IMG/VR virus record: IMGVR_UViG_3300021963_008193
Coordinates: 1 to 64,000 of that record
DNA: 64,000 bases
Reading direction: 5' to 3' (one strand)
From: a virus
Part shown: positions 6,362 to 45,810 of the stretch, piece after piece
Numbering within the stretch: the first letter of the stretch is position 1
Layout of the letters: each line of letters begins with the position of its first letter
Translations under genes and position numbers: made by a program
Notes under the pieces: model-generated
What the model saw: the letters and a program-made list of their open reading frames with translations, nothing else
Told to the model about the DNA's origin: nothing
Database searches by the model: none

Positions 6362-6369
6362 TATTTATA
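6362..6369 (+). promoter_or_regulatory. TATTTATA motif, candidate late promoter for terL
   Basis: TATTTATA immediately follows the terminator and lies 13 bases before the terL ATG at 6383. A terminator followed directly by this motif supports it being a transcription start element. Confidence 0.5.
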
Positions 6370-14438: not shown

Positions 14439-16340
14439 ATGGGAGCATTATTAGAATCAGGTCTTGTTGGTAACATCGGGTTAAAACACCTTAAAGTTAT
14501 CAAAGAAGATACTATCAACAAATGGGATAAATTAGGATTCCTTGAAGGTCTTAGAGGCCACCTAAAAGAAAACGTAGCACAGTTGTATGAAAACCAAGCG
14601 TCTTTCTTAATCAACGAGGCTACATCAGAAGGGTCATCAGGTTCTTTCGAAACTGTTGTATTCCCTATCGTTAGACGTGTATTCTCTAAATTATTAGCGA
14701 ACGACATCGTATCTGTACAAGCTATGAACTTACCTATCGGTAAATTGTTCTACTTCGTACCTAAAATCCAAGGTTATAATGGAGGTCAAGTTCAAGGACC
14801 AGCAAATGATTACGCAGGTGAATCAGGAGCACATTACGCACCAATTGGAGCACCTAATGGACCAACTGCTGCAGATGGTCAAGCAGGTATTGGTTACGGT
14901 CAAAACTCAACTTACGGTAAGAAAAATCTTTATGATTTATTTTACGAAGGTAACGAAGGTCAATTAGACCCTCCAGGATTATTTGATTACTCTAAAGGTC
15001 AATGGTCAGCAATGACAGTTGATACAACTTTACAAGTTTGGTCAAATGGTAGTTTACAAGACTCTAACGGAACCGATTTTGATAATCAAAACGTTAGAAA
15101 AGTAATTATCTCTATGTGTGGATTCGCATCTGCAGGTTCAGGTAAATTAATCGGACCTGATGGTAATGAGTATGACTCAGAAACTTTCTTAGCTGATTTA
15201 AGAATTTATGCTAACGGTACTGCTAATGATGGTACTTGGTCAGCTGACACAGGATGTCAAGTTGCATTTGGTGCACAAGGTCCAAATTCATTATTGTTTA
15301 GAGTTGTTACTCAACAATACGGACAAGGAATCGTTAATGGTTTAAATAATAGAGCTCAAGCACCTTGGCCTACTAACGGTGGTAACATCGAAGGTGGTGG
15401 TAACGGTGGTTACTTTAACGACATCTGTTCACCAACAGGTTGTATCTATTTAGAAGTTGACTTATCATGTCCAGTATGTGCTGATTGTGGTGGTGGTACT
15501 TTAGATGGTTACACAGGAACTACACTTGGTGCTAATGTTGACCCTAACGCGTTCTCTGCAGTATTTAGACGTTACAAAGAATTAGAATTTGAAGACAAAA
15601 TCGGTGAGGTTTCTTTCGAATTGGATTCTGTAACAGTTTCTGTAACTGAAAGAAAATTAAGAGCACAATGGTCTCCTGAGTTAGCTCAAGACGTTGCGGC
15701 TTTCCATAACATCGACGCTGAGGCTGAGTTAACTGCATTGTTATCTGAGCAAGTTGCAGCTGAGATTGACCGTGAAATTTTACGTGACTTACGTAAAGGA
15801 GCGGCTTGGAATTTACGTTGGGACTACAACGGATGGAGAAGAATCCAAAACACAACTAACTACACTCAAAAAGATTGGAACCAAACATTGATTACTGCAA
15901 TCAATCAGTTGTCAGCACAAATCCACAAATCTACTTTAAGAGGTGGAGCTAACTGGATTGTTGTTTCTTCTGAGGTTTCTGCAATCTTTGATGATTTAGA
16001 ATACTTCCACGTATCTAACGCGTCTCCTGAGCAAGACCAATACAACATGGGTATTGAAAGAGTTGGTACATTAGCTGGTCGTTACCAAGTTTACCGTGAC
16101 CCTTACTTCCCACCAAACCAAGTTTTGATTGGACACAAAGGAACGTCATTGTTAGACACAGGTTACATCTACGCACCATACGTACCATTACAATTAACAC
16201 CTACAATGTATAACCCATTCAACTTCACACCTATCAAAGGTATTATGACAAGATACGCTAAGAAAATGGTTAATAACCGTTTCTACGGACGTATCACTGT
16301 TGATGGAGTACGTACATTTGATTTAAGAGAATTGAGATAA
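14439..16340 (+). CDS. Major capsid protein, T4 gp23-like
   Basis: The 633-residue product follows the gp23 plan. An N-terminal pro-region is followed by FLINE-A at residues 56-61, matching the gp21 cleavage site at about the same distance as in T4 (after residue 65). Then come the conserved VVFPIVRRVFSKLLANDIVSVQAMN and VSFELDSVTVSVTERKLRAQWSPELAQDV regions and the C-terminal APYVPLQLTPT and RYAKKMVNNRFYGRI. It is about 110 residues longer than T4 gp23. The extra length lies in a Gly/Asn-rich middle region (about residues 110-375) that contains a cysteine cluster (CSPTGC, then CPVCADC). It is transcribed with the scaffold and closed by a strong terminator. Confidence 0.95.
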   Translation: MGALLESGLVGNIGLKHLKVIKEDTINKWDKLGFLEGLRGHLKENVAQLYENQASFLINEATSEGSSGSFETVVFPIVRRVFSKLLANDIVSVQAMNLPIGKLFYFVPKIQGYNGGQVQGPANDYAGESGAHYAPIGAPNGPTAADGQAGIGYGQNSTYGKKNLYDLFYEGNEGQLDPPGLFDYSKGQWSAMTVDTTLQVWSNGSLQDSNGTDFDNQNVRKVIISMCGFASAGSGKLIGPDGNEYDSETFLADLRIYANGTANDGTWSADTGCQVAFGAQGPNSLLFRVVTQQYGQGIVNGLNNRAQAPWPTNGGNIEGGGNGGYFNDICSPTGCIYLEVDLSCPVCADCGGGTLDGYTGTTLGANVDPNAFSAVFRRYKELEFEDKIGEVSFELDSVTVSVTERKLRAQWSPELAQDVAAFHNIDAEAELTALLSEQVAAEIDREILRDLRKGAAWNLRWDYNGWRRIQNTTNYTQKDWNQTLITAINQLSAQIHKSTLRGGANWIVVSSEVSAIFDDLEYFHVSNASPEQDQYNMGIERVGTLAGRYQVYRDPYFPPNQVLIGHKGTSLLDTGYIYAPYVPLQLTPTMYNPFNFTPIKGIMTRYAKKMVNNRFYGRITVDGVRTFDLRELR

Positions 16341-16362
16341 TCAACAACTTAAAATAACCCTC

Positions 16363-16395
16363 AAAAGGAGACAAGAAATTGTCTCCTTTTTTTAT
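16363..16395 (+). terminator. Rho-independent terminator after the capsid gene
   Basis: A perfect stem AAAAGGAGACAA / TTGTCTCCTTTT closes on a GAAA tetraloop and runs into seven or more T bases. It ends the scaffold-capsid transcript. Confidence 0.92.
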
Positions 16396-16439
16396 TTCAT
16401 ATGTTTTGCTAATTAAATGGTTAGATTTATTCATAACAA

Positions 16440-16447
16440 TATTTATT
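16440..16447 (+). promoter_or_regulatory. TATTTATT motif upstream of the surface-protein gene
   Basis: TATTTATT lies 59 bases before the ATG at 16507; a second, one-mismatch copy lies nearer. Confidence 0.35.
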
Positions 16448-16485
16448 TTATGGTTAACTATCGTCAATATTATGTTGTTAAATAA

Positions 16486-16493
16486 TACTTATT
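16486..16493 (+). promoter_or_regulatory. TACTTATT variant motif, candidate late promoter
   Basis: TACTTATT differs from the common motif at one base but sits at the commonest distance, 13 bases before the ATG at 16507. Confidence 0.35.
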
Positions 16494-16506
16494 AAAAAAG
16501 TCATTT

Positions 16507-18642
16507 ATGAAAAAAATACTAATCTTATTATCATTTCTAATTACCTCATCAATATTCTCACAGGTTAGTTACTACACATTTAGTGAAACTACGGGTACAT
16601 ACACATCAATAGTTGCTGGTACACAATTAGTAACAACTACAGGGGGTGCAACCGCTTATGATACTGACGGTAGTTATTTCACCCTACCCGTAGGTTCCCA
16701 ATTTATATTTAATGGTACAACTATAACATCAGTTAATATGACCGCCGATGGTTCGGTTTGGTTAAATCCAAATACTACAACAACAGGTAATAATGTTACA
16801 GGACCAATATCCTCTGCAGGAGTTGCTTCAGGAGTAATATCTGCGATGGGTATGGATTTAAGAAGTACCGCGATTTCAAGTCAAGTATATGAAAGAAGAT
16901 GGCAAGATAACGGTACTGAAGTTATATTCCAATGGCAAAATGTTGCTAGATACTCAACAACAACACCCTTTGTACAAAATGAAAGATTCTCATTTCAAGT
17001 AAGGGTAAATAAATCTACAGGGGTTGTTCGTATCATTTATGGTAATATGACCACAATTACTAGTAGTACTCAATATACACCTATGGTTGGTTTAAGAGGG
17101 TCTGTAAATACTGATTTTAATAATAGAAGATTAACAAATGCAATTCCTGATGCAACACCAAATTGGGGAGCACCGAATGGAACAACTGCAGGTACATCAA
17201 ACGCACATACGGTTAGATTTACATCAACAGGGACCTGTTACCCAACTTCGGGATTAACATTTATATGGACACCACCTGCGGTTCCATCAAATGACGCTTG
17301 TTCTAACGCCTCATTATTAACATTACAATGTCCTGGTTCCACCACAGGAACTATTGGGACGACTATCGGTTCTATAACTACTGATGGGTTACCAAATCCT
17401 TCTTGTGATGCCACAGGAACTATTAGAGATGTGTGGTATTATTTTAATACGGGAAATAATACTGAAATGAACCTTTATGCGTCATTAGGGACCTCAACAT
17501 GGATTGGTGTTGAAATTTATACTACTTGTGGTACATTGGCAACAGGATTAAATACTACATGTGATTTTAATTTAATTTCACCAAATCCAACAAATATAAC
17601 AGGTCTTTTAATGAATACAACATATCGTTTAAGAATTTTTACAAATGTGTCATATGACACTCCAGGAACTTTTACAATATATTTAAATACTGTAAATAAT
17701 ACATCAACACTTTCTTCAATAACAGGAACTGATAACCAAACTGTTTGTCAAAACACTTCAATAACTAATATTACTTATAACACAAAAGGTGCGACAGGTT
17801 CTACCTTTTCAGGATTACCAACGGGAGTGTCGGGAAGTTGGAATAGTAATGTAGTAACGATTACGGGAACTCCATTAGTTTCAGGTACGTTTAATTATGT
17901 TATAACTCTTACGGGTGGTTGCGGTACAGTCACATCAAATGGTGCTATAACCGTCAATCCTACAGTTGTAACTATTTCATCAATAACAGGTAATCCAAAC
18001 ATAATTGCAGGTACAACTGAAAATTACTCAATACCGTCAGACCCAAATGCAACAACATATCAATGGGATTATAGGGAAAGTAGTACATCAAGTTGGGTCA
18101 CTAATGTTTCAAACACTAACTCAGTAAGTATTACTTGGCCAACAACAACAACTGATGGTGAAGTTAAGATTACAGTGTCAAATAGTTGTAATACGGTAAA
18201 TAAAAATTTGTTAATCCATGTTGACGGTATCCTACCTGTTGAATTACTGTATTTTGAAGGTAAACCCGTTTCAAATACTAACTACTTATATTGGTCAACC
18301 GCGTCAGAACATAACTCAGATTATTTTGAAATTCTACACAGTGTGAATGGTGAAGTATGGGAATCTATTGGACAAATTACTTCATCAGGTAATTCAACAA
18401 TCAAAAACGACTATCACTATTATCATAACTCACCCGAACACGTATTTAATTATTACATATTAAAACAAGTTGATTATGATGGTGTGTATAAAACCTATAA
18501 TCCAATTGTGATTAATAACAGAATTAAAGACAAAAAAATTATAAAGTACACTAACATCCTTGGACAAGAAGTGGGACCAAATGAAAATGGTGTTATTTTT
18601 ATCACTTATGAGGATAATTCAGTGATAAAAACCGTAAAATAA
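16507..18642 (+). CDS. Secreted surface protein with T9SS-type C-terminal region
   Basis: This 711-residue protein begins with a clear signal peptide (MKKILILLSFLITSSIFS before Gln), typical of flavobacteria. Residues about 20-250 are Thr/Ser-rich beta. Residues about 258-400 resemble a pre-peptidase/CUB-like beta domain (SNDACSNASLL start), and residues about 400-570 contain two Ig-like/PKD-like segments. From about residue 573 it has the block LPVELLYFEGK, then WSTASEHNSDYFEI, then KQVDYDGVYKTYNPIVI, which is common in Bacteroidetes extracellular proteins. It ends with a short T9SS type A-like tail (YTNILGQEVGP to VIKTVK). In hosts this tail directs export across the outer membrane by the type IX system. 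Its position right after the capsid gene is unexpected. It may be host-derived and act at the host surface, for example in superinfection exclusion; that role is inference. Confidence 0.8.
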   Translation: MKKILILLSFLITSSIFSQVSYYTFSETTGTYTSIVAGTQLVTTTGGATAYDTDGSYFTLPVGSQFIFNGTTITSVNMTADGSVWLNPNTTTTGNNVTGPISSAGVASGVISAMGMDLRSTAISSQVYERRWQDNGTEVIFQWQNVARYSTTTPFVQNERFSFQVRVNKSTGVVRIIYGNMTTITSSTQYTPMVGLRGSVNTDFNNRRLTNAIPDATPNWGAPNGTTAGTSNAHTVRFTSTGTCYPTSGLTFIWTPPAVPSNDACSNASLLTLQCPGSTTGTIGTTIGSITTDGLPNPSCDATGTIRDVWYYFNTGNNTEMNLYASLGTSTWIGVEIYTTCGTLATGLNTTCDFNLISPNPTNITGLLMNTTYRLRIFTNVSYDTPGTFTIYLNTVNNTSTLSSITGTDNQTVCQNTSITNITYNTKGATGSTFSGLPTGVSGSWNSNVVTITGTPLVSGTFNYVITLTGGCGTVTSNGAITVNPTVVTISSITGNPNIIAGTTENYSIPSDPNATTYQWDYRESSTSSWVTNVSNTNSVSITWPTTTTDGEVKITVSNSCNTVNKNLLIHVDGILPVELLYFEGKPVSNTNYLYWSTASEHNSDYFEILHSVNGEVWESIGQITSSGNSTIKNDYHYYHNSPEHVFNYYILKQVDYDGVYKTYNPIVINNRIKDKKIIKYTNILGQEVGPNENGVIFITYEDNSVIKTVK

Positions 18643-18645
18643 AAG

Positions 18646-18653
18646 TATTTATA
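18646..18653 (+). promoter_or_regulatory. TATTTATA motif, candidate late promoter
   Basis: TATTTATA lies only 3 bases before the ATG at 18657, so the message would be nearly leaderless or start further down. Confidence 0.35.
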
Positions 18654-18656
18654 TGT

Positions 18657-19073
18657 ATGAATACTTTAAGAGGATTAATTAAGGAAAATCTTTTATTAGA
18701 AAAACGAATTGGGCAAATCTCGGCCAATTTTGAGATTGTGTTTGGTTTTGATGTAATTACCACTAAACATTCTAAAGATAGAAGTGGTGGTAGAGAAGAA
18801 CTCGAGGGATACAACCAAAGACCTGTCGATAATAAAGAAATTGTTGAGGTTCTTAATATGTTCAAGAAAGACATTGCCGAAAAAATTATCATGGGAGAAA
18901 TAAAAGACCAAGAAAATTTTGTGGTAATTTCAAATCAATGGGAATTAGCCATGGCAATTATCCCTGAAAAAGAATCGAACACTTATTGGAAATTAATAGT
19001 TAGAACAGTATTTAGACAATCAGATACTCATAAGTTCTTATATGGAAGAAACCAAGTGGTTTTGGAAAAATAA
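18657..19073 (+). CDS. Unknown small protein, possible nuclease-like fold, tagged N-terminus
   Basis: The 138-residue product begins with MNTLRGLIKENLLLEKR, which contains two (L/I)-x-E sites suited to the prohead protease. The rest has a TTKHSKDRSGG motif, a helix, then strands FVVISNQWELAMAII and WKLIVRTVFRQSD. The alternation of His, Arg and strands is faintly reminiscent of RelE/barnase-like phage nucleases, but no catalytic set is clear and I do not assign activity. ATG 18657 directly follows a promoter-like motif. Confidence 0.5.
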   Translation: MNTLRGLIKENLLLEKRIGQISANFEIVFGFDVITTKHSKDRSGGREELEGYNQRPVDNKEIVEVLNMFKKDIAEKIIMGEIKDQENFVVISNQWELAMAIIPEKESNTYWKLIVRTVFRQSDTHKFLYGRNQVVLEK

Positions 19074-19080
19074 ATGAGGG

Positions 19081-19140
19081 TTGTATCTAAATCGTTGCCT
19101 CCCCCATTTCCTGTAATTAATTGTATCTAAATCGTTACCT
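19081..19140 (+). repeat. Direct repeat pair, 20 bases, 40-base period
   Basis: TTGTATCTAAATCGTTGCCT at 19081-19100 recurs at 19121-19140 with one change (G to A). The pair lies in the 152-base gap before the 19226 gene and could be a regulatory binding site. The rest of the gap is unremarkable and AT-rich. Confidence 0.7.
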
Positions 19141-19776: not shown

Positions 19777-20322
19777 ATGAAAAAACTATATTTTTTAAAC
19801 GAGGAAGAGTCTAATAGAATATTAAATCTTCACAAAAAGGCAGTTAAAAAACAATTTTTAAATGAAGCTGGACCATATCAAGATACTGAGTCTATACCAT
19901 CCTCCCCTACAACACCTGCATCACCAACTACACCCACTACTCCATCAACACCTACTACACCCACAACACCAACTACTCCGTCAACACCTGCGTCACCAAC
20001 AACGTCTACACCAACAACACCAACAGGTTCGTTGACTCAACAGTTACAAACTCTTATAGGTGCAAAGGCGGATGATAAGTTTGGTAAATTGTCATTACAG
20101 GCATTGACTGATAAATTAAAAACCGTCCCAAAACCAAGTACACCAACACCCGCAACAGGAACACCCGCAACAGGAACACCCGCGACAGGAACACCTGCGA
20201 CAGGAACACCTGCGACAGGAACACCTGCGACAGGAACACCCGCAACAGGAACACCCGCAACAGGAACACCCGCAACAGGAACACCTGCGACAGGGACTAA
20301 AATGAATAATACTGATTTATAA
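19777..20322 (+). CDS. Tagged Thr-Pro-rich protein with peptidoglycan-binding-like segment and TPATG repeats
   Basis: The 181-residue product begins MKKLYFLNEEESNRILNLH and reaches FLNEAG at about residue 27-32, an L-N-E-A site suited to the prohead protease. A Thr-Pro-Ala-Ser linker follows, then a short PG_binding_1-like helix pair (LQTLIGAKADDKFGKLSLQA), then ten TPATG units and a short tail. Layout matches the preceding gene, so the two may have arisen by duplication. It ends one base before a convergent gene. Function unknown. Confidence 0.55.
   Translation: MKKLYFLNEEESNRILNLHKKAVKKQFLNEAGPYQDTESIPSSPTTPASPTTPTTPSTPTTPTTPTTPSTPASPTTSTPTTPTGSLTQQLQTLIGAKADDKFGKLSLQALTDKLKTVPKPSTPTPATGTPATGTPATGTPATGTPATGTPATGTPATGTPATGTPATGTPATGTKMNNTDL
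20146..20295 (+). repeat. 15-bp tandem repeat encoding TPATG
   Basis: Ten head-to-tail copies of ACACC(C/T)GC(A/G)ACAGGA differ only at synonymous positions. They are in frame in the gene at 19777-20322, so copy-number change would keep the frame. Confidence 0.9.
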
Positions 20323-37774: not shown

Positions 37775-39295
37775 TTAGTGAATACGTATAAGATGATTAA
37801 CTAATCTATTAAGGTTTTGATAAAAAAATGGTAACAATGTTTGAGAATAGTCATGTCTTTCCCCTATCATGTTTTTCTCATCTTTACCTCTTGACTGACT
37901 TTCAAAATGATACGAAACTAAACTACCGTCAAAATAATTTTCATATCCCATTAAGAGACATTTTGCGTTAAGTTCTACATCTTCAAAACAAGTTGTATAA
38001 TTCTCATTATAACTCCCACATTTTTCAAAAACATTTTTTCTAATCATCATTAACGCTGCCGTATTACCAAATACTTTTTTAAATGATACAGGATGGTTAT
38101 AATATGATTTTATATTATCGTGACCTAAAATAATTTGTTGTCGACTATTAACTCCTGCGAACACACCCCCATGTTGTACGGTATTATCTTCAAAATGTAA
38201 TCTACAACCAACAGTTCCTGTTTTAGGGTGTTCTTTCATGATTTTTAACATACCATAAATGACGTTGTTTAATATTTTAATATCATTATTACAAAACAAC
38301 AAAAATTCATATTTGTTATCTATATGATTTTTGACAACATCATTATTTATTTTAGCGAAATTATAATAATCGTATTCAATTAGAGTTATTTGTACCTTTG
38401 TTGAGTTTTCGGTTATATAATTTTTTATTTCGGAAATCTCGTCCTCGTTTGACCCAGTATCTGCAACGAAAATATGATAAAGTTGCGAGTTGGAATGTTC
38501 TATAAATGAATCTATACATTGTTTTAATAAATTAACTTTCCCTTTTGTCGGGATTATTACTGCAACACTACCAACATTTTTAATTGGTTTTTCTTTAATT
38601 TCGGGAGTATATATTTTATTCGGTAATAAGTCTAATGGTAATTTTTCTTTCCATTTATTTAAAAATTTATCCTTACTTTCCCAAAATTCTTGGTTTGGTT
38701 GACCTACCGATTTATGAGTTATTTCAAATGAAGATGTTACACCAATTTTTACATTATCTAAATAATTTGGAATACAAAACCCATGGTCGTAAAAATGGAA
38801 CTTTCCATAAGATTCATCAAAAGTATGTTTGATTTTTGTTTTGTCAAATGATATAAACAAACCATCAATTGTTACTACGGGAATTAAAAAAGGTAGTTTA
38901 GGGGAATATTGACTTAACCATTTTTTTTGGTTTTCAGGATGGTGATACACTTGTCCCACCATTGTTTGTTTCATTTTTTCCCAATAAACTCCTGATTCGG
39001 GAAAATAACATGAACCAGCCTTTCCAATTATACCGAATTCGGGGTTAATGGAAAAATCCTCTAATAGTTTTTTACCCCAATTCTTCTCAAGTTTTATATC
39101 GTTATGACAACAAACTATTATATCATGAGAGGACTCTTCAATACCCTTATTATATAATTCCGATAATGAATATTGGTTGTTATTATTATATTCAATGATT
39201 TGAACATCGGGTAAACCAACTGTCTGTAATAAGTGTCGTTGGAAATTGGAATTATATTCGAAATCCTTATGAGTTGAGTATATTATCGTTATCAT
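37775..39295 (-). CDS. Two-domain glycosyltransferase (GT2-like)
   Basis: The 506-residue protein has an N-terminal half starting MITIIYSTHKDFEYNSNFQR with a GT-A-like DIIVCCHNDIKLE, and a C-terminal GT2 domain from about residue 245 (VAVIIPTKGKVNLLKQCIDS) with FLLFCNNDIKILN and CFEDVELNAKCLLMGY. The C-terminal half resembles rhamnosyltransferase-type GT2 enzymes. Two catalytic units in one protein could add two sugars. It overlaps the next gene by 29 bases, so they are coupled. Confidence 0.75.
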   Translation of the reverse strand: MITIIYSTHKDFEYNSNFQRHLLQTVGLPDVQIIEYNNNNQYSLSELYNKGIEESSHDIIVCCHNDIKLEKNWGKKLLEDFSINPEFGIIGKAGSCYFPESGVYWEKMKQTMVGQVYHHPENQKKWLSQYSPKLPFLIPVVTIDGLFISFDKTKIKHTFDESYGKFHFYDHGFCIPNYLDNVKIGVTSSFEITHKSVGQPNQEFWESKDKFLNKWKEKLPLDLLPNKIYTPEIKEKPIKNVGSVAVIIPTKGKVNLLKQCIDSFIEHSNSQLYHIFVADTGSNEDEISEIKNYITENSTKVQITLIEYDYYNFAKINNDVVKNHIDNKYEFLLFCNNDIKILNNVIYGMLKIMKEHPKTGTVGCRLHFEDNTVQHGGVFAGVNSRQQIILGHDNIKSYYNHPVSFKKVFGNTAALMMIRKNVFEKCGSYNENYTTCFEDVELNAKCLLMGYENYFDGSLVSYHFESQSRGKDEKNMIGERHDYSQTLLPFFYQNLNRLVNHLIRIH

Positions 39296-40010
39296 ATAAA
39301 AAGTTCATTGCGGTTAAATCTTCAACCTCGTTAAAATTATGTGCCTCGAAATCTTTCATAGTTCGTCTATGTTCTAACAATGGAGTGTCGGCTCTACCTC
39401 GATTACATTTTTGTGTAAATTCTTCTTTAGTTTTACCAAAGTAATGATTTAATTGGGCAATATCATCATCACCATTTTCATTAAATGGTCCCATAAACAA
39501 TCTTTTATTTGTGTCTGTTGATGGTTTATTAAAAGGATTATGAACATCCATTATAATATTACTTGATAATTTAATAATGGATTTAACATGATTGTTAATA
39601 GATTTTTGACGTTTTGTAAATCGTTTAAGAACACTGTATTCGTTATTTACTCGTTGATGACCATTGTCACCAAATAAAACCCAGTTAACACCTATTGAGT
39701 GATAATCTAAATAATCTGAGATAAAATCTTTAACATTTTGATGTTTTTTTAAAACTAAAAATTCATCAATATCAAAAAATGCCGCCCAATCATATTTTGT
39801 ATAATTGTTTTGAATAAAATGGTGATAAGCTTCTCGTTGTTTATTAACACCGTCAAAATCTATTGTAATAACGTTAGGTTCGTCAATAGAACACCTCCAA
39901 TCATTTTGATAAATAATAATATCATCAAAACCAAGTTTTTTATTATAATTTATCCATTCTTGGATATACATATCCTCGTTTTTTGCTATACAAACTAATG
40001 CAACCTTCAT
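39267..40010 (-). CDS. Glycosyltransferase of the DUF23/GT92-like or GT2-like type
   Basis: ATG 40010 (MKVALVCIAKNEDMYIQEWI) is preferred over upstream in-frame starts because it clears the next gene. The 247-residue protein matches the small GT2/GT92 pattern: KNED near the start, WAAFFDIDEFLVL as the D-x-D region, and an aspartate-rich C-terminal end. The DIDEF motif is characteristic of GT92-like enzymes. Substrate unknown. It overlaps the previous gene by 29 bases and lies 4 bases after the methyltransferase. Confidence 0.72.
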   Translation of the reverse strand: MKVALVCIAKNEDMYIQEWINYNKKLGFDDIIIYQNDWRCSIDEPNVITIDFDGVNKQREAYHHFIQNNYTKYDWAAFFDIDEFLVLKKHQNVKDFISDYLDYHSIGVNWVLFGDNGHQRVNNEYSVLKRFTKRQKSINNHVKSIIKLSSNIIMDVHNPFNKPSTDTNKRLFMGPFNENGDDDIAQLNHYFGKTKEEFTQKCNRGRADTPLLEHRRTMKDFEAHNFNEVEDLTAMNFLYDNDNILNS

Positions 40011-40014
40011 AATG

Positions 40015-40563
40015 TTATATTTTAACCCACCATTGTTGTCCACCAACAACATTTATTTTATCCCCAAATATTTCATCAACGGCTTGCATTACCCCTGGCC
40101 AACCGATAACATAATCGTCCCCACATAATACTCCACCTTTTTTCACTTTAGGTAACCAATTTTTAATATCTTCAATAACAAATTCATATTCGTGGGAGGC
40201 ATCAATATAAACAATATCGAAATATTCATCACTATAGTTTTTAGATTCAGAAATTGAATCATTTTTAATAAGTTCTATTTTATCTAAAATTGGTTTTAAA
40301 TTTTCCAAAGTAATACCATGGTAGTTAATTGTTTTATCGTGTTCAGTAGACCCCTCAAAATGGTCAATTGCTTTATATTCGTATTCAAGGTTTTCATTAA
40401 TTAATATAGTATTCCACATTGAAGTCCCTCGACCTTGGTAAACACCTATTTCGGCAATTTTTATTTTTTGATTGGTATTAATCAAAGGTAAAATTGTTTT
40501 AAGTAATTCACCTTGTTCAGATTCCGAAGACCATCCTTCGATATTATGATAAAAATGCTCCAT
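40015..40563 (-). CDS. Class I SAM methyltransferase
   Basis: The protein shows IKIAEIGVYQGRGTSMWN (SAM-binding motif I), then EYFDIVYIDASHEYEFV and GGVLCGDDY, a pattern of the class I methyltransferase type 24 group that often acts on sugars. ATG 40563 (MEHFYHN) is chosen; a start at 40590 would run inside the dUTPase reading frame. It lies among glycosyltransferases, so sugar methylation is the most likely use, but this is inferred. Confidence 0.72.
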   Translation of the reverse strand: MEHFYHNIEGWSSESEQGELLKTILPLINTNQKIKIAEIGVYQGRGTSMWNTILINENLEYEYKAIDHFEGSTEHDKTINYHGITLENLKPILDKIELIKNDSISESKNYSDEYFDIVYIDASHEYEFVIEDIKNWLPKVKKGGVLCGDDYVIGWPGVMQAVDEIFGDKINVVGGQQWWVKI

Positions 40564-40564
40564 A

Positions 40565-41155
40565 TTATATTCCTGTTGAACCGAACCCATTATCTCCTCG
40601 GTCTTTTTCGTTTATTTTATTTTTTTGTACTAAATTAACCCATTTACCATTAACAACAGGACAAAGGACTGCTTGTCCTATTTTCATACCTTTAGTGATT
40701 GTTACAGGATGATTATTCGTATTAAAAATAATTCCTTTAACTTCACCCGTATAACCATTATCAACAGTCCCTGGAGAATTTAAAATCATTAGTCCTTGAT
40801 TAATAGCTAAACCGCTTTTTGACCTAACTTGAATTTCGTATCCGTCTTTAATGTCAAATGACAATCCTGTCGGAACTAACGCTCTCCCAAATGAGGGGAT
40901 AATTACCTCCTCAATAGCATGTAAATCAAACCCCGAATCTGTTTCGTAATTATATTTTGGTGTATACGCTTCAGGATTTAATTTGATAAACCCTAAATCT
41001 AATTGTGGCGTATAGTTCTCCATTTCCTCTTCTAATGATTTCATATCAAGACCATGTTCTTGTAATATTTTGTCATAGTCTAACTCAGAATCATCGGTTT
41101 GTAATAGATATTCTTGTAGTTTTTCTGATTGTTCTTTTAGTGAATCTAAATTCAT
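40565..41155 (-). CDS. dut: dUTP diphosphatase
   Basis: The 196-residue protein carries all five trimeric dUTPase motifs: ETDSGFDLHA, the EIQVRSKSGLA uridine/phosphate motif, NSPGTVDNGYTGEV, the GMKIGQAVL motif and the C-terminal GDNGFGSTG loop that closes on substrate. An N-terminal ~50-residue helical extension is extra. The enzyme hydrolyses dUTP to dUMP and pyrophosphate, keeping uracil out of phage DNA and supplying dUMP. It begins on the last base of the exonuclease gene. Confidence 0.95.
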   Translation of the reverse strand: MNLDSLKEQSEKLQEYLLQTDDSELDYDKILQEHGLDMKSLEEEMENYTPQLDLGFIKLNPEAYTPKYNYETDSGFDLHAIEEVIIPSFGRALVPTGLSFDIKDGYEIQVRSKSGLAINQGLMILNSPGTVDNGYTGEVKGIIFNTNNHPVTITKGMKIGQAVLCPVVNGKWVNLVQKNKINEKDRGDNGFGSTGI

Positions 41156-41865
41156 TATTCTAATTCTTTTAATTTTTTAATAACATCAATTAATACTTGA
41201 ACATCTCGTTCACAGTATTCAGATATTTCTTTTAACATACTCTTTTCCCAATAACATTCGTGAACTTTATCTCCTGTAACATCTCCGTCCTTAGGTGATG
41301 GAACTTCCATACAAGTACACATTAAGTCTAAAGAACCAATTGATGTGTAGGACCCGTATTGCCAAATTTCTTTGGTATCGATAGCCTTAATTTCCCATGG
41401 TTTTGTGTCGTAAGACGGTAAAATTGATGGTGGTAATAAACCATTAACAATCATACGTTTTGCCAACATAGGGATATCAAAATTCTTCAAGTTATGACCA
41501 CATAAAAAGAAGTCTAATTTACCGCATCTTTCAAGTAGTTTCTGAACACCTTTTAATAAAGTTTTTTCATCATCGTCAGAAAATGTTTGTGATTTAGTTT
41601 CTCCGTTATCCATAACGAATGCGACACTAACACAAACTATTTTAGCGAACTCGGGAACAAGTGCCGCTCTTCTTTTAAACATATAATTTTTAGAATCAAT
41701 GTCTACCGACGCGTCTTCAGGGAATCTTTTTTGGAACCAATCAAAATATTTATCAAATTGATTTGCAATTTCAGGATTGAAGTTTTGACATGAGTCATAG
41801 TCAGGACATGCTCCAACCGTCTCAATGTCCAAAAATAAAATTTTGGTAATAGGTATTTTAATCAT
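41155..41865 (-). CDS. DEDD 3'-5' exonuclease (PolB-like)
   Basis: The 236-residue protein has the RNase H-like DEDD set: ILFLDIETVGACPD (Asp/Glu), FLCGHNLKNFDIPMLA (Asp) and YCERDVQVLIDVI (Asp). It matches predicted PolB-like 3'-5' exonucleases (PF10108 group), with roles in replication or repair and removal of mismatched ends. It lies 3 bases from the next gene and overlaps the dUTPase start by one base, in a small nucleotide-metabolism pair within the modification cluster. Confidence 0.85.
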   Translation of the reverse strand: MIKIPITKILFLDIETVGACPDYDSCQNFNPEIANQFDKYFDWFQKRFPEDASVDIDSKNYMFKRRAALVPEFAKIVCVSVAFVMDNGETKSQTFSDDDEKTLLKGVQKLLERCGKLDFFLCGHNLKNFDIPMLAKRMIVNGLLPPSILPSYDTKPWEIKAIDTKEIWQYGSYTSIGSLDLMCTCMEVPSPKDGDVTGDKVHECYWEKSMLKEISEYCERDVQVLIDVIKKLKELE

Positions 41866-41868
41866 AAA

Positions 41869-43086
41869 TTATTTAATTAAAGATTTGTAAAATTCTGCTC
41901 TTGTTTTAGTTACAACTCTAAGGTCATAAGTGTCTTTAACAGTTTCATAAAGACGTTCACCCATATCAGTAATCAAATTAGGGTTGTTAACCAATTTCTT
42001 AATAAACTTACTCCAATCTCCATGGTTTCTATTTTCTTGGACCAACATAGCATTACCATCAACAAATTCACCATTTTTTAAACAGTGTTTAAGGTCGATA
42101 GTATAAGGACCAACCTCAGAAGCAATTATCGCTTTTTTATAGAACCCCGCCTCAATAACTTTAAGTTGAGACTTCATTCTATTAAAGATATGATTTTTAA
42201 TTGGTGCTAATGAAATGTCGAATTTAGAATAATTCATTGCGTATGATGTAACGGGTTTTGTCCAAACCCGTTGGTATGGTAATGAAATTCCTGAATCATA
42301 ATTACTTTCTTTAAATTCCATTAGGAAGTTTTTATAATCGTTACCAATTATCTTATAGTTGTCTGTGAAAATTTCTTCATATTTCGACCAAACAGTTTCT
42401 TCAGGTTTAATAGGTCTTTGATTCTTTTCACCTGTCTGTTTATTAATCTCGGTGATTGTTCCTCTCGTATCAAAACCACACAAAACATATTGTATTTTTT
42501 GAGTTAGGTCATTATTTTTAGAAACAAAACCATTCAATAATTTTAAATCGTGTAAGTGAGAAGAACCTCCTAACCAACCAATTCTAATTCTATCAGACTC
42601 CTCTGAAGGTTGTTTAAACTGAGATTCATTTGGGTCTATTGCGTTAGGTAATACTATTACGTTTTTATTAACTTTACGGATTTCATTAGCAAATAAAACT
42701 GTTGTAGTTGTAACATAATCAGCTTCTCGTAAATTAGCAACAATTTTTTCGTGTATCTTGTCTTGAACAATGATACTATGTATTGGGTGTTCCATAGTTG
42801 GTAACCAATAATCATCAATATCTACAATAGTTATAATTCCCATAGATTTTAGGTTCTTAATAATCATTGGGGTGTGTTCATATATGTTTCCAATATTTCT
42901 ATGGACATGAACTATTTGATACTGTTTCCAATAATTTGGGTCATTAATCCTCGGCTCATAATCGATATCTACATGGAAGTCATCATTATACATGTTTTGT
43001 AACATTACGTGAGGGTCCACAGAACGAAATTTACCCACACCTGTTTTATCTGAAGGGAGTACTAATACTTTAATCTTTTGTGTCAT
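41869..43086 (-). CDS. Glycosyltransferase, GT-B fold (GT4-like)
   Basis: The 405-residue protein has a Rossmann-like N-terminal half (KIKVLVLPSDKTGVGKFRSV; QIVHVHRNIG) and a C-terminal half with IRIGWLGGSSHLHDLKLL and a KVIEAGFYKKAIIASEVGP block, both usual for GT4 enzymes. Substrate is unknown. It is the upstream member of the cluster, with a 105-base gap to the 43192 gene, and the leader lacks the TATTTAT motif. Confidence 0.75.
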   Translation of the reverse strand: MTQKIKVLVLPSDKTGVGKFRSVDPHVMLQNMYNDDFHVDIDYEPRINDPNYWKQYQIVHVHRNIGNIYEHTPMIIKNLKSMGIITIVDIDDYWLPTMEHPIHSIIVQDKIHEKIVANLREADYVTTTTVLFANEIRKVNKNVIVLPNAIDPNESQFKQPSEESDRIRIGWLGGSSHLHDLKLLNGFVSKNNDLTQKIQYVLCGFDTRGTITEINKQTGEKNQRPIKPEETVWSKYEEIFTDNYKIIGNDYKNFLMEFKESNYDSGISLPYQRVWTKPVTSYAMNYSKFDISLAPIKNHIFNRMKSQLKVIEAGFYKKAIIASEVGPYTIDLKHCLKNGEFVDGNAMLVQENRNHGDWSKFIKKLVNNPNLITDMGERLYETVKDTYDLRVVTKTRAEFYKSLIK

Positions 43087-44504: not shown

Positions 44505-44975
44505 TTAAATTATTTTTTTCATTATGTCGTTTATTCTTCTCAAGCTTTCGGTAACCTGTAAATCGTAATCACCAATACTTGTTTTATGACTTTTACTTGG
44601 TCTATTCATATCCGTAATACCATCTTTTTCATGTGTTTGGATGAATTGATTTGGTAGTACTTCTGATTTATTTTGTTTAGTTGTGTGGATACCATCTCTC
44701 ATGGTCCCCAAAGTATTATGAACCCAATTCTTTACGTAGTGACCACCATTTAAAATATAGGGTAATTCGTTTTCATGACCGTCAAAACTATCAAACCAAT
44801 TCTTCATTCGTTTTAATTGTTGGTAACTAACTTCACGAGTATCTCTTAAATCCTTGTTGCGTTTGTAACCTTCAGTGTTTTCATCGGCACCATGTGCAGA
44901 ATCAAAACATTGACCTAAATAGTTTAACACATCTTCAGGTAAGGGAACTTTATGTCCGTATAAATCCTTATTCAC
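44505..44975 (-). CDS. Conserved-looking phage protein of unknown function
   Basis: The 156-residue protein (MNKDLYGHKVPLPEDVLNYL start) has many His, Asn and Asp residues and a helix-rich fold (RMKNWFDSFDGHENELPYIL), ending LRRINDIMKKII. I have the impression of similar proteins in marine T4-like phages, but no function. It overlaps the upstream gene by 8 bases. Confidence 0.5.
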   Translation of the reverse strand: MNKDLYGHKVPLPEDVLNYLGQCFDSAHGADENTEGYKRNKDLRDTREVSYQQLKRMKNWFDSFDGHENELPYILNGGHYVKNWVHNTLGTMRDGIHTTKQNKSEVLPNQFIQTHEKDGITDMNRPSKSHKTSIGDYDLQVTESLRRINDIMKKII

Positions 44976-45810
44976 TTGTCTTTAATATACTGATTAATTT
45001 ATTAATACTAATACCTTCTTTATCCGCCAATTTTTTAATTGACTGTAAGTTCTTAACTAGTATTTTACTAACACTATTATTTTCATTCTCTCGTCTAACA
45101 ACATCAGAATTCTCTTTTGATTTTTTAGAAAGAATATCCTCTACCATCTTAATCATTTGTTGTTTTTCCTGTTCCTCAATACTTTCTTTTTCCGATAGAC
45201 GTTGTCTTAATTTACCGTTTTTCTTTTTCGCTTTAGGTAATTTGCCTAATTCCTTAGCTCTATGAACTGAATTTTCAACACCCATTTTTTTAAGAGTTTT
45301 AACGGTGTTGTTAAAATCCATGTCTTGAGTTTCCTCAAAACCAAATGCGTCCGAATAATCAATTTCTGATACTACATTTTCATCCTCTTCTTCACTTTCA
45401 CCGTAGTACACTCTAAACCCTCTTGTAATTGGGTCATTAGAAAATCTTGACATTGTTACCGTTTGGTCCATAGTCTTTCTTGGGTGTAACGCCTGATTTA
45501 GGTATGGTGTTCTCGCACTTAAAAAACCTCCATCGGCATCAATTAATTCATCGATTTCGCCAGACTTAGTAACATCGTCTAACTCCTTATCAATTTCTTT
45601 TTTTGAAACTTTTTTCTTAGAAGTTAAAAACTTATTCATAATATTTTTAACATTTTTTGAATCCTTCTTTTTGAAATCTTTTTTATCATCTTTCTTTCTT
45701 GATTCGGTTAATGTGTCGGCAACAGAGTAATATAAAGAGATTTTGTCACCTTTATCCTTAAGAAAAAAGTAACAATTGTTATTGAAGTATTCTTTATTAA
45801 AATTAATCAT
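44968..45810 (-). CDS. Lys-rich helical protein, possible head/core role
   Basis: The 280-residue protein is highly charged with Lys/Asp-rich runs (SRKKDDKKDFKKKDSKN) and several long helices. A possible L-T-E-S protease site lies near residue 36. No domain recognised. A promoter-like motif lies 12 bases before the ATG and a second one faces the divergent + strand gene 45862. Function is not assigned. Confidence 0.5.
   Translation of the reverse strand: MINFNKEYFNNNCYFFLKDKGDKISLYYSVADTLTESRKKDDKKDFKKKDSKNVKNIMNKFLTSKKKVSKKEIDKELDDVTKSGEIDELIDADGGFLSARTPYLNQALHPRKTMDQTVTMSRFSNDPITRGFRVYYGESEEEDENVVSEIDYSDAFGFEETQDMDFNNTVKTLKKMGVENSVHRAKELGKLPKAKKKNGKLRQRLSEKESIEEQEKQQMIKMVEDILSKKSKENSDVVRRENENNSVSKILVKNLQSIKKLADKEGISINKLISILKTSE

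Follow-up and report, generated by a model that had tools for sequence, protein, structure and literature searches.

The locus and its protein

We analysed a stretch of 64,000 nucleotides (nt), hereafter the window, which covers positions 1 to 64,000 of the 74,965-base uncultured virus record IMGVR_UViG_3300021963_008193. By Pfam and PHROG matches the window, which comes from a virus of Flavobacteria-type bacteria, carries a T4-type head gene set: gp23, the gp20 portal, a gp21-type protease and a T4-type terminase. Our subject is the open reading frame (ORF) that begins 166 nt 3′ of the gp23 stop codon and encodes 711 amino acids. A first-pass annotation, made from the sequence alone, had placed this gene directly behind the capsid gene, which we confirm, and had read its product as a surface protein exported by the type IX secretion system (T9SS) of Bacteroidetes. 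Many related viruses carry the same kind of predicted export tail behind different fronts, and therefore infected cells probably acquire a surface protein encoded by the virus. The features of the region, all on the plus strand, are as follows.

14439..16340, plus strand: major capsid protein, T4 gp23 type (PF07068, E 2.4e-73; phrog_138, E 4e-67)
16363..16390, plus strand: terminator-like hairpin, 12 pairs and a T run, between the capsid and cargo genes (hairpin scan)
16486..16494, plus strand: TACTTATTA, an imperfect TATTTAT copy, possible phage promoter (sequence)
16507..18642, plus strand: whole gene, predicted T9SS-exported surface protein, 711 amino acids (ORF list, Pfam, comparison with relatives)
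16507..16560, plus strand: Sec signal peptide, residues 1-18, then Q19, as in the Bacteroidota Q-rule (sequence; home-made rule)
16561..17270, plus strand: variable N-terminal domain, residues 19 to about 255 (start sequence)
17287..17679, plus strand: GBD_T9SS_assoc, galactose-binding-like, residues 261-391 (PF23759, E 6e-7, above the Pfam cut-off)
17971..18204, plus strand: PKD-like domain (PKD_6), residues 489-566 (PF19408, E 6.3e-6, above the Pfam cut-off)
18232..18516, plus strand: fibronectin-III-like (FnIII) module LPVELLYFEGK...YYILKQVDYDG, residues 576-670 (AlphaFold2, VIA fold search)
18505..18639, plus strand: 45-residue C-terminal tail, short-CTD-like (CTD, C-terminal domain), residues 667-711 (motifs and AlphaFold2 model)

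The protein starts with the signal peptide MKKILILLSFLITSSIFS followed by Q, as had been claimed. By the home-made rule used for all signal peptide calls in this work, it is the only one among the listed window ORFs of at least 100 amino acids to combine a signal peptide with a following Q. The Ig-like segments of the first-pass annotation also hold up, with both GBD_T9SS_assoc and PKD_6 above their Pfam cut-offs. The block starting LPVELLYFEGK is a real domain: AlphaFold2 models the C-terminal 140 residues with a mean pLDDT (predicted local distance difference test) of 90.9 and predicts an FnIII-like fold for the block, whose best VIA match aligns 84 residues (Z 11.4, root-mean-square deviation 2.0). 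The matches of the C-terminal model in fold searches are beta-sandwich domains, FnIII-type ones among them; since these searches hardly probed the tail, the absence of a T9SS CTD from their lists carries no weight. In BFVD there are phage proteins of similar C-terminal fold, a lower-ranked one of which is annotated as 'Secretion system C-terminal sorting domain'.

A chimera or misassembly is ruled out, because contig L002 is 100% identical across the best segment of the window protein and relatives lie on eight further viral contigs.

Relatives in phages and the slot behind gp23

A viral scan with the C-terminal block gave 444 relatives. We kept the best 80 loci, and all 80 hold an ORF with the C-terminal block and the tail. 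The annotation had called a gene of this kind unusual and had proposed looking for it in related phages; the search was productive, and the description has to be toned down, since such genes are frequent in related uncultured phages and phage T9SS sorting-domain proteins are already in print for two other phage groups. Two queries against 50,697 records detected no isolated phage with the tail. The C-terminal block of locus L072 is matched by four records of uncultured huge phages, in two cases over at least 80% of its length.

In 51 of the 80 tailed loci a gp23 gene on the same strand precedes the tailed gene; the distance never exceeds 2,645 nt and is within 220 nt in 34 of the 51. For the other 29 tailed genes no gp23 was found in the fetched upstream flank, which is shorter than 2 kb in nine of them and in which a very divergent gp23 would escape. 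Collapsing near-copy contigs reduces the 80 loci to 47 non-redundant proteins, 27 of which have a member behind gp23. The reverse scan, from gp23, used the best 80 of at least 599 matches, and 51 of these were usable (complete capsid gene and 2.5 kb downstream). A tailed gene lies within 4 kb in 12 of the 51 and another Q-rule ORF in four more; without near-copies the figures are 11/46 and 4/46. With tailed genes in these 12 loci and other fillings elsewhere, the region behind gp23 is a variable slot, and the tailed gene is one of its several fillings. Some of the other ORFs in the slot resemble HNH endonucleases by eye.

The loci hold further proteins of related kinds. A subtilase (L078:10015-12066) with a Q-rule start, 203 nt after gp23, has an SprB repeat and ends in a curated type A CTD. 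Two more Q-rule subtilases (L083:4361-5815 and L117:4400-5830) lie roughly 220 nt behind gp23, and their C-termini have no curated-model match. Locus L033 encodes a CUB/GEVED protein bearing the short tail. Type B sorting-domain ends are found by curated models at L107:3576-6014 and L147:10695-11270, and by eye at L168:3947-6385; the type B proteins of L107 and L168 directly precede a short-tailed protein. A Q-rule-like start also occurs in uncultured huge phages of about 635 kb (L092:5539-6528 and L325:2682-4342), together with the FnIII block or a short way upstream of it; the L325 block stands just behind a secreted-looking ORF that is possibly frameshifted.

Two side observations concern other genes. 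An N-terminal motif like MKKLYFLNEEEKxRILNLHExxTKxQYLxE was seen by eye at window position 19777 (loosely also at 19121) and downstream of gp23 in many of the L011-L090 loci; it could be a capsid-targeting or prohead-protease propeptide. The window also has glycosyltransferase-like genes at 37775-43086 on the minus strand (phrog_7162, E 2.7e-44; phrog_1721, E 1e-5).

Conserved ends and exchanged N-terminal parts

The loci were never selected by signal peptide. A signal peptide with Q next to it is found in 67 of the 68 distinct phage tailed proteins, and a signal peptide in all 57 non-redundant ones. As controls we took the other ORFs of at least 250 amino acids from the same loci, some of which are themselves T9SS-type siblings: after removal of redundancy 15 of 446 have a signal peptide, 12 of them with Q, and before de-duplication the counts are 16/666 and 13/666. 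The Q-rule is a mark of signal peptidase I substrates in Bacteroidota (PMC5837995) and has been noted in Porphyromonas phages (PMC10367356).

At a threshold of at least 30% identity over at least 80 residues, the first 150 residues of the mature protein sort 67 distinct tailed proteins into 12 families. By its start sequence the window protein belongs to the largest of these, with 25 of the 67. Twelve pairs share 83-99% of the C-terminal 140 residues and have N-termini of different families, and all of these pairs involve L099, L114 or L129. For example, L072 and L099 are 99.3% identical over 139 C-terminal residues, and their capsids are 89% identical. These comparisons show that related phages carry unrelated N-terminal parts on nearly identical, predicted export ends.

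The C-terminal tail

The tail of the window protein has a motif B (ILGQEV), a motif D glycine, a basic motif E and three predicted strands, at 107-111, 125-130 and 135-139 of the 140-residue model, which by number would fit a three-stranded sheet. A tail profile matches 57 non-redundant phage proteins in the fetched loci, and in all 57 the match ends at most four residues from the C-terminus, which makes the tail more than a chance resemblance.

Ye et al. (2025; PMC11969387) described short CTDs on T9SS cargo of Prevotella intermedia. These are 40-55 residues long and contain motifs B, D and E with conserved glycines, B and D being 1-6 residues apart; their three strands are the counterparts of strands 3, 6 and 7 in long CTDs and are modelled to bind PorV alike. 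For type A CTDs, an AlphaFold model puts motifs B, D and E against PorV, and the last 22 residues of HBP35 are enough for secretion (PMC10202324). The phage tails are conserved over 45-46 positions at the C-terminus, inside the 40-55 range. Motif B glycine is present in 67/67 distinct phage tails and motif D glycine in 66/67; in the 66 that fit the pattern, B and D are 3-6 residues apart by our own motif boundaries, and all 67 have K or R among the last six residues. Since the tail has the length, glycines, spacing, basic end and strand number of short CTDs but not their GxY, we call it short-CTD-like, and we infer from the comparative evidence that it would act as a sorting signal. The annotation had instead called it type A-like. 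Direct membership of types A, B or C is ruled out by the curated models, the results of which are given where the export reading is weighed.

The tail in host bacteria

The short tail is present in 109 of 199 genomes sampled from one order, a sample that includes Brumimicrobium glaciale (Flavobacteriales). In a phylum-wide sample it is found in 5 of 296 genomes, with four of the matches weak (E 2e-5 to 1e-3) and two internal and probably false. Among host ORFs of the fetched loci the tail ends at most four residues from the C-terminus in 38/40, the remaining two being probably false, and a signal peptide is called in 21 of the 26 host tailed ORFs that are intact at the 5′ end.

What follows the FnIII module differs between the two settings: in phages it is the short tail, in hosts a longer C-terminus that looks like type A. 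Of 140 genome loci the best 80 supplied 95 host ORFs with the FnIII block; in 92 the block is followed by 76-98 further residues, and the other three are cut at a contig end. These C-termini are mostly type A-looking by eye, the curated model having been run for L171 only.

A good example of the relation between the two kinds of ending is the secreted Endonuclease I. In 31 loci examined (the query's own and 30 of 56 match rows) this enzyme has the short tail in six, a type A-profile CTD in 17 and neither in eight. Identity to the query nuclease is 61% for its nearest relative with a type A CTD and 61-78% for the relatives with the short tail. The NCBIfam and Pfam models call type A in 4/4 of the type A-profile C-termini tested, and they report no sorting domain for the two short-tailed nucleases examined or for four further host proteins with the short tail. 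Our own type A profile gives weak matches to two of the six short tails (E 1.9e-4 and 7e-5, with a few dozen C-termini searched). The homologues L294-L323 and L256 (Flavobacteriales), with a short tail or a type A CTD, form natural pairs for work on CTD function.

The intergenic region

Between the capsid and cargo genes, the hairpin at 16363-16390 is the one site of its kind found, with 1.2 expected in shuffles; by our own rule a hairpin of the same kind is present in 22 of 25 distinct gp23-to-cargo intergenic regions. The exact TATTTAT lies within 37 nt of the ATG in 23 of these 25 regions, which are related and not independent, with 0.019 expected per region at the window base rate. The promoter-like motif of the annotation has to be corrected: a scan for sigma-70-type promoters in 16200-18800 is at chance level (17 found, 13.4 +/- 4.1 expected). 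Relatives instead have TATTTAT shortly before the gene, and the window has it only as TACTTATTA. TAnnTTTG is found in 1/25 and TATAAATA in 0/25 of the intergenic regions. TATTTAT(A/T), a possible phage promoter motif, also stands about 20-30 nt before the window gene starts at 6362, 11693, 20936, 50223 and 51156, and before the minus-strand gene 44968-45810.

A proposed mechanism

We propose that transcription of the gene would coincide with that of the late genes and start at a promoter of its own behind the capsid terminator, as its position and the motif suggest; late expression is a guess. The signal peptide would then take the protein through Sec, and signal peptidase I would expose an N-terminal Gln, the signal for which is plain in the sequence. 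Judging from the comparative evidence, the 45-residue tail would act as a short C-terminal sorting domain and engage PorV and the SprA translocon, which would place the galactose-binding-like, PKD and FnIII domains at the cell surface or beyond it. Taking Sec export with Gln exposed and tail-driven PorV/SprA sorting jointly, the window gene is probably a phage-made T9SS cargo. The export reading of the annotation is accordingly well placed; it is supported by the signal peptide, the Q-rule, the T9SS-associated domains and a tail that replaces a type A CTD on the same host enzyme.

What the cargo does is a guess. It may alter the encounter of infected or lysing cells with phages, most likely by masking surface receptors or competing for them, so that superinfecting phages and fresh progeny would not adsorb to spent cells and debris; we regard this role as a rather doubtful possibility. 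The suggestions of the annotation, display on infected cells that would block superinfection, change adhesion or trap phage, likewise stand as candidate roles. More broadly, we tentatively suggest that the slot behind gp23 in T4-type phages of Flavobacteriales may hold polymorphic T9SS effectors, with a constant end of FnIII module and short CTD and recombined payloads (lectin-like, CUB/GEVED and others, with subtilases in sibling slots), which would remodel the infected-cell surface against rivals and against the sticking of progeny. The short CTD would then be a widespread, unmodelled T9SS signal of hosts and phages.

Alternative explanations

The protein might instead decorate the virion, as an Ig-like head protein encoded beside gp23, with a hydrophobic N-terminus that serves head assembly or a prohead protease cut and a tail that is a capsid-binding or folding unit. 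T4 Hoc is an Ig-like head protein, and the gene is placed behind gp23 as such a role would have it. Moreover, the second gene after gp23 in Flavobacterium phage immuto (MW353176, immuto35A_206; L091:7209-8849) encodes tandem Ig/PKD repeats free of export signals, as expected of a virion protein, and window residues 373-499 match its product at 43.8%. Signal peptides have also been predicted on phage capsid proteins, where they are thought to be cut by prohead proteases (PMC10367356). Virion decoration is nevertheless unlikely in view of the signal peptide and Q on 67/68 distinct tailed proteins, of host genomes that put the same tail on signal-peptide proteins, of siblings with curated type A or B sorting domains or a subtilase domain, and of the 29 of 80 tailed genes without a gp23 found upstream (subject to the short flanks and divergence noted above).

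Export could also matter for its own sake. A late flood of cargo on PorV/SprA might stop the display of host T9SS receptors such as gliding adhesins, with the cargo domain of little matter. The gene stands among late genes, with its own promoter-like motif in relatives, and the T9SS adhesins SprB and RemA have been named as possible phage receptors (PMC13288928). That said, jamming would need none of the large and diverse N-terminal parts, or the enzymes among the siblings, and we consider it quite improbable. Finally, the gene may be selfish or neutral, a mobile host gene in a tolerant intergenic slot beside homing endonucleases and of no benefit to the phage. The slot is indeed variable, with a tailed gene within 4 kb in just 12 of the 51 usable gp23 loci and some HNH-like neighbours by eye, but these proteins are long and mostly intact and recur on many contigs with conserved signals at both ends, which makes a passive passenger very improbable.

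Returning to the exported cargo, a number of observations weigh against it besides the immuto gene. Signal peptides were called by a simple rule, not by SignalP, and one of the 68 distinct tailed proteins has none by that rule; this is probably L150, whose ORF starts later than those of its relatives or is broken. Structure prediction of the N-terminal 381 residues reached a mean pLDDT of 40.5 and was not used further. The window is one of the two intergenic regions without an exact TATTTAT. SprA is matched in 196 of the 199 genomes of the order sample, so co-occurrence with the T9SS cannot discriminate, and two of the three genomes without an SprA match (G345 and G396) have the tail; these are perhaps incomplete assemblies.

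The tail itself supplies the remaining points. With E-values up to 10 allowed and the HMMER filters on, which discard most matches above E of about 0.1, the type A models PF18962 and TIGR04183, the type B models TIGR04131 and PF13585 and the type C model NF033708 (confirmed present in the searched library) each list 0 of 19 phage C-termini, and the type A-like label is therefore dropped. The same libraries do recognise control proteins, with type B on L107 and L147 and type A on L078 and the host nucleases. Compared profile to profile with 19 type A-like CTDs from hosts, the tail gives no significant match (probability 0.5%, E 0.12), the best 13 columns covering the motif D glycine. Motif D reads GxY in only 2 of 66 tails, and mostly GxI (40) or GxV (14). 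The annotation had held that a failure to match T9SS CTD profiles would count against it; there is no match with type A, B or C models or by profile-profile comparison, but most features of short CTDs are present.

If the export reading is right, a common group of aquatic phages employs the surface-export machine of its host late in infection and loads it with an exchangeable payload. Sorting signals of the short C-terminal kind, described as a peculiarity of P. intermedia, would furthermore be widespread in Flavobacteriales. Pfam and NCBIfam models would miss them, and a large number of proteins secreted by these bacteria or encoded by their phages would therefore be overlooked.

Comparison with known systems

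Phage-encoded T9SS cargo is already in print (PMC7468147, PMC6949934). As far as our literature search shows, three elements are new: a short tail that occurs in both phages and Flavobacteriales, the gp23 slot, and N-terminal parts that are exchanged while the export end stays nearly constant. On the slot behind gp23 in T4-type phages, a search that left out most subscription papers found nothing.

Cryophage (2020) is a 76 kb circular Bacteroidetes phage with three variable genes that carry type A domains, for which superinfection exclusion was proposed (PMC7468147). It resembles our case in having phage-encoded T9SS cargo that varies between phage variants. Compared by description, its cargo consists of an endoglucanase, a glycoside hydrolase and a PA14 protein with type A domains, whereas ours belongs to a gp23 phage and has a short tail on a gene behind gp23. 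In cluster 2 of the crAss-like phages (2019), T9SS sorting-domain ORFs lie beside the head section, and the likeness is again that of sorting-domain ORFs near the head genes of Bacteroidota phages; the lineage is a different one and BACON domains are involved (PMC6949934). Phage immuto likewise encodes Ig/PKD-like repeats shortly after gp23, but in immuto35A_206 no signal peptide, FnIII module or tail is seen.

The type A CTD (PF18962, TIGR04183) takes the same place after the FnIII module and is found on the same nuclease, in hosts. It is longer, with models of 72-75 positions and seven strands according to the literature, and the curated models do not report the short tail. The closest parallel in form is the short CTD of P. 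intermedia, the only species in which such CTDs had been observed according to PMC11969387. Phage-type tails differ from it in a motif D that is mostly GxI or GxV rather than GxY or GxN, in the FnIII module that precedes the tail in the phage proteins and in their occurrence in Flavobacteriales and phages. Both have 40-55 residues, motifs B, D and E with a short B-D spacing, three predicted strands and an N-terminal signal peptide, and in both the glycine is invariant in motif B and nearly so in motif D, followed by a basic motif E.

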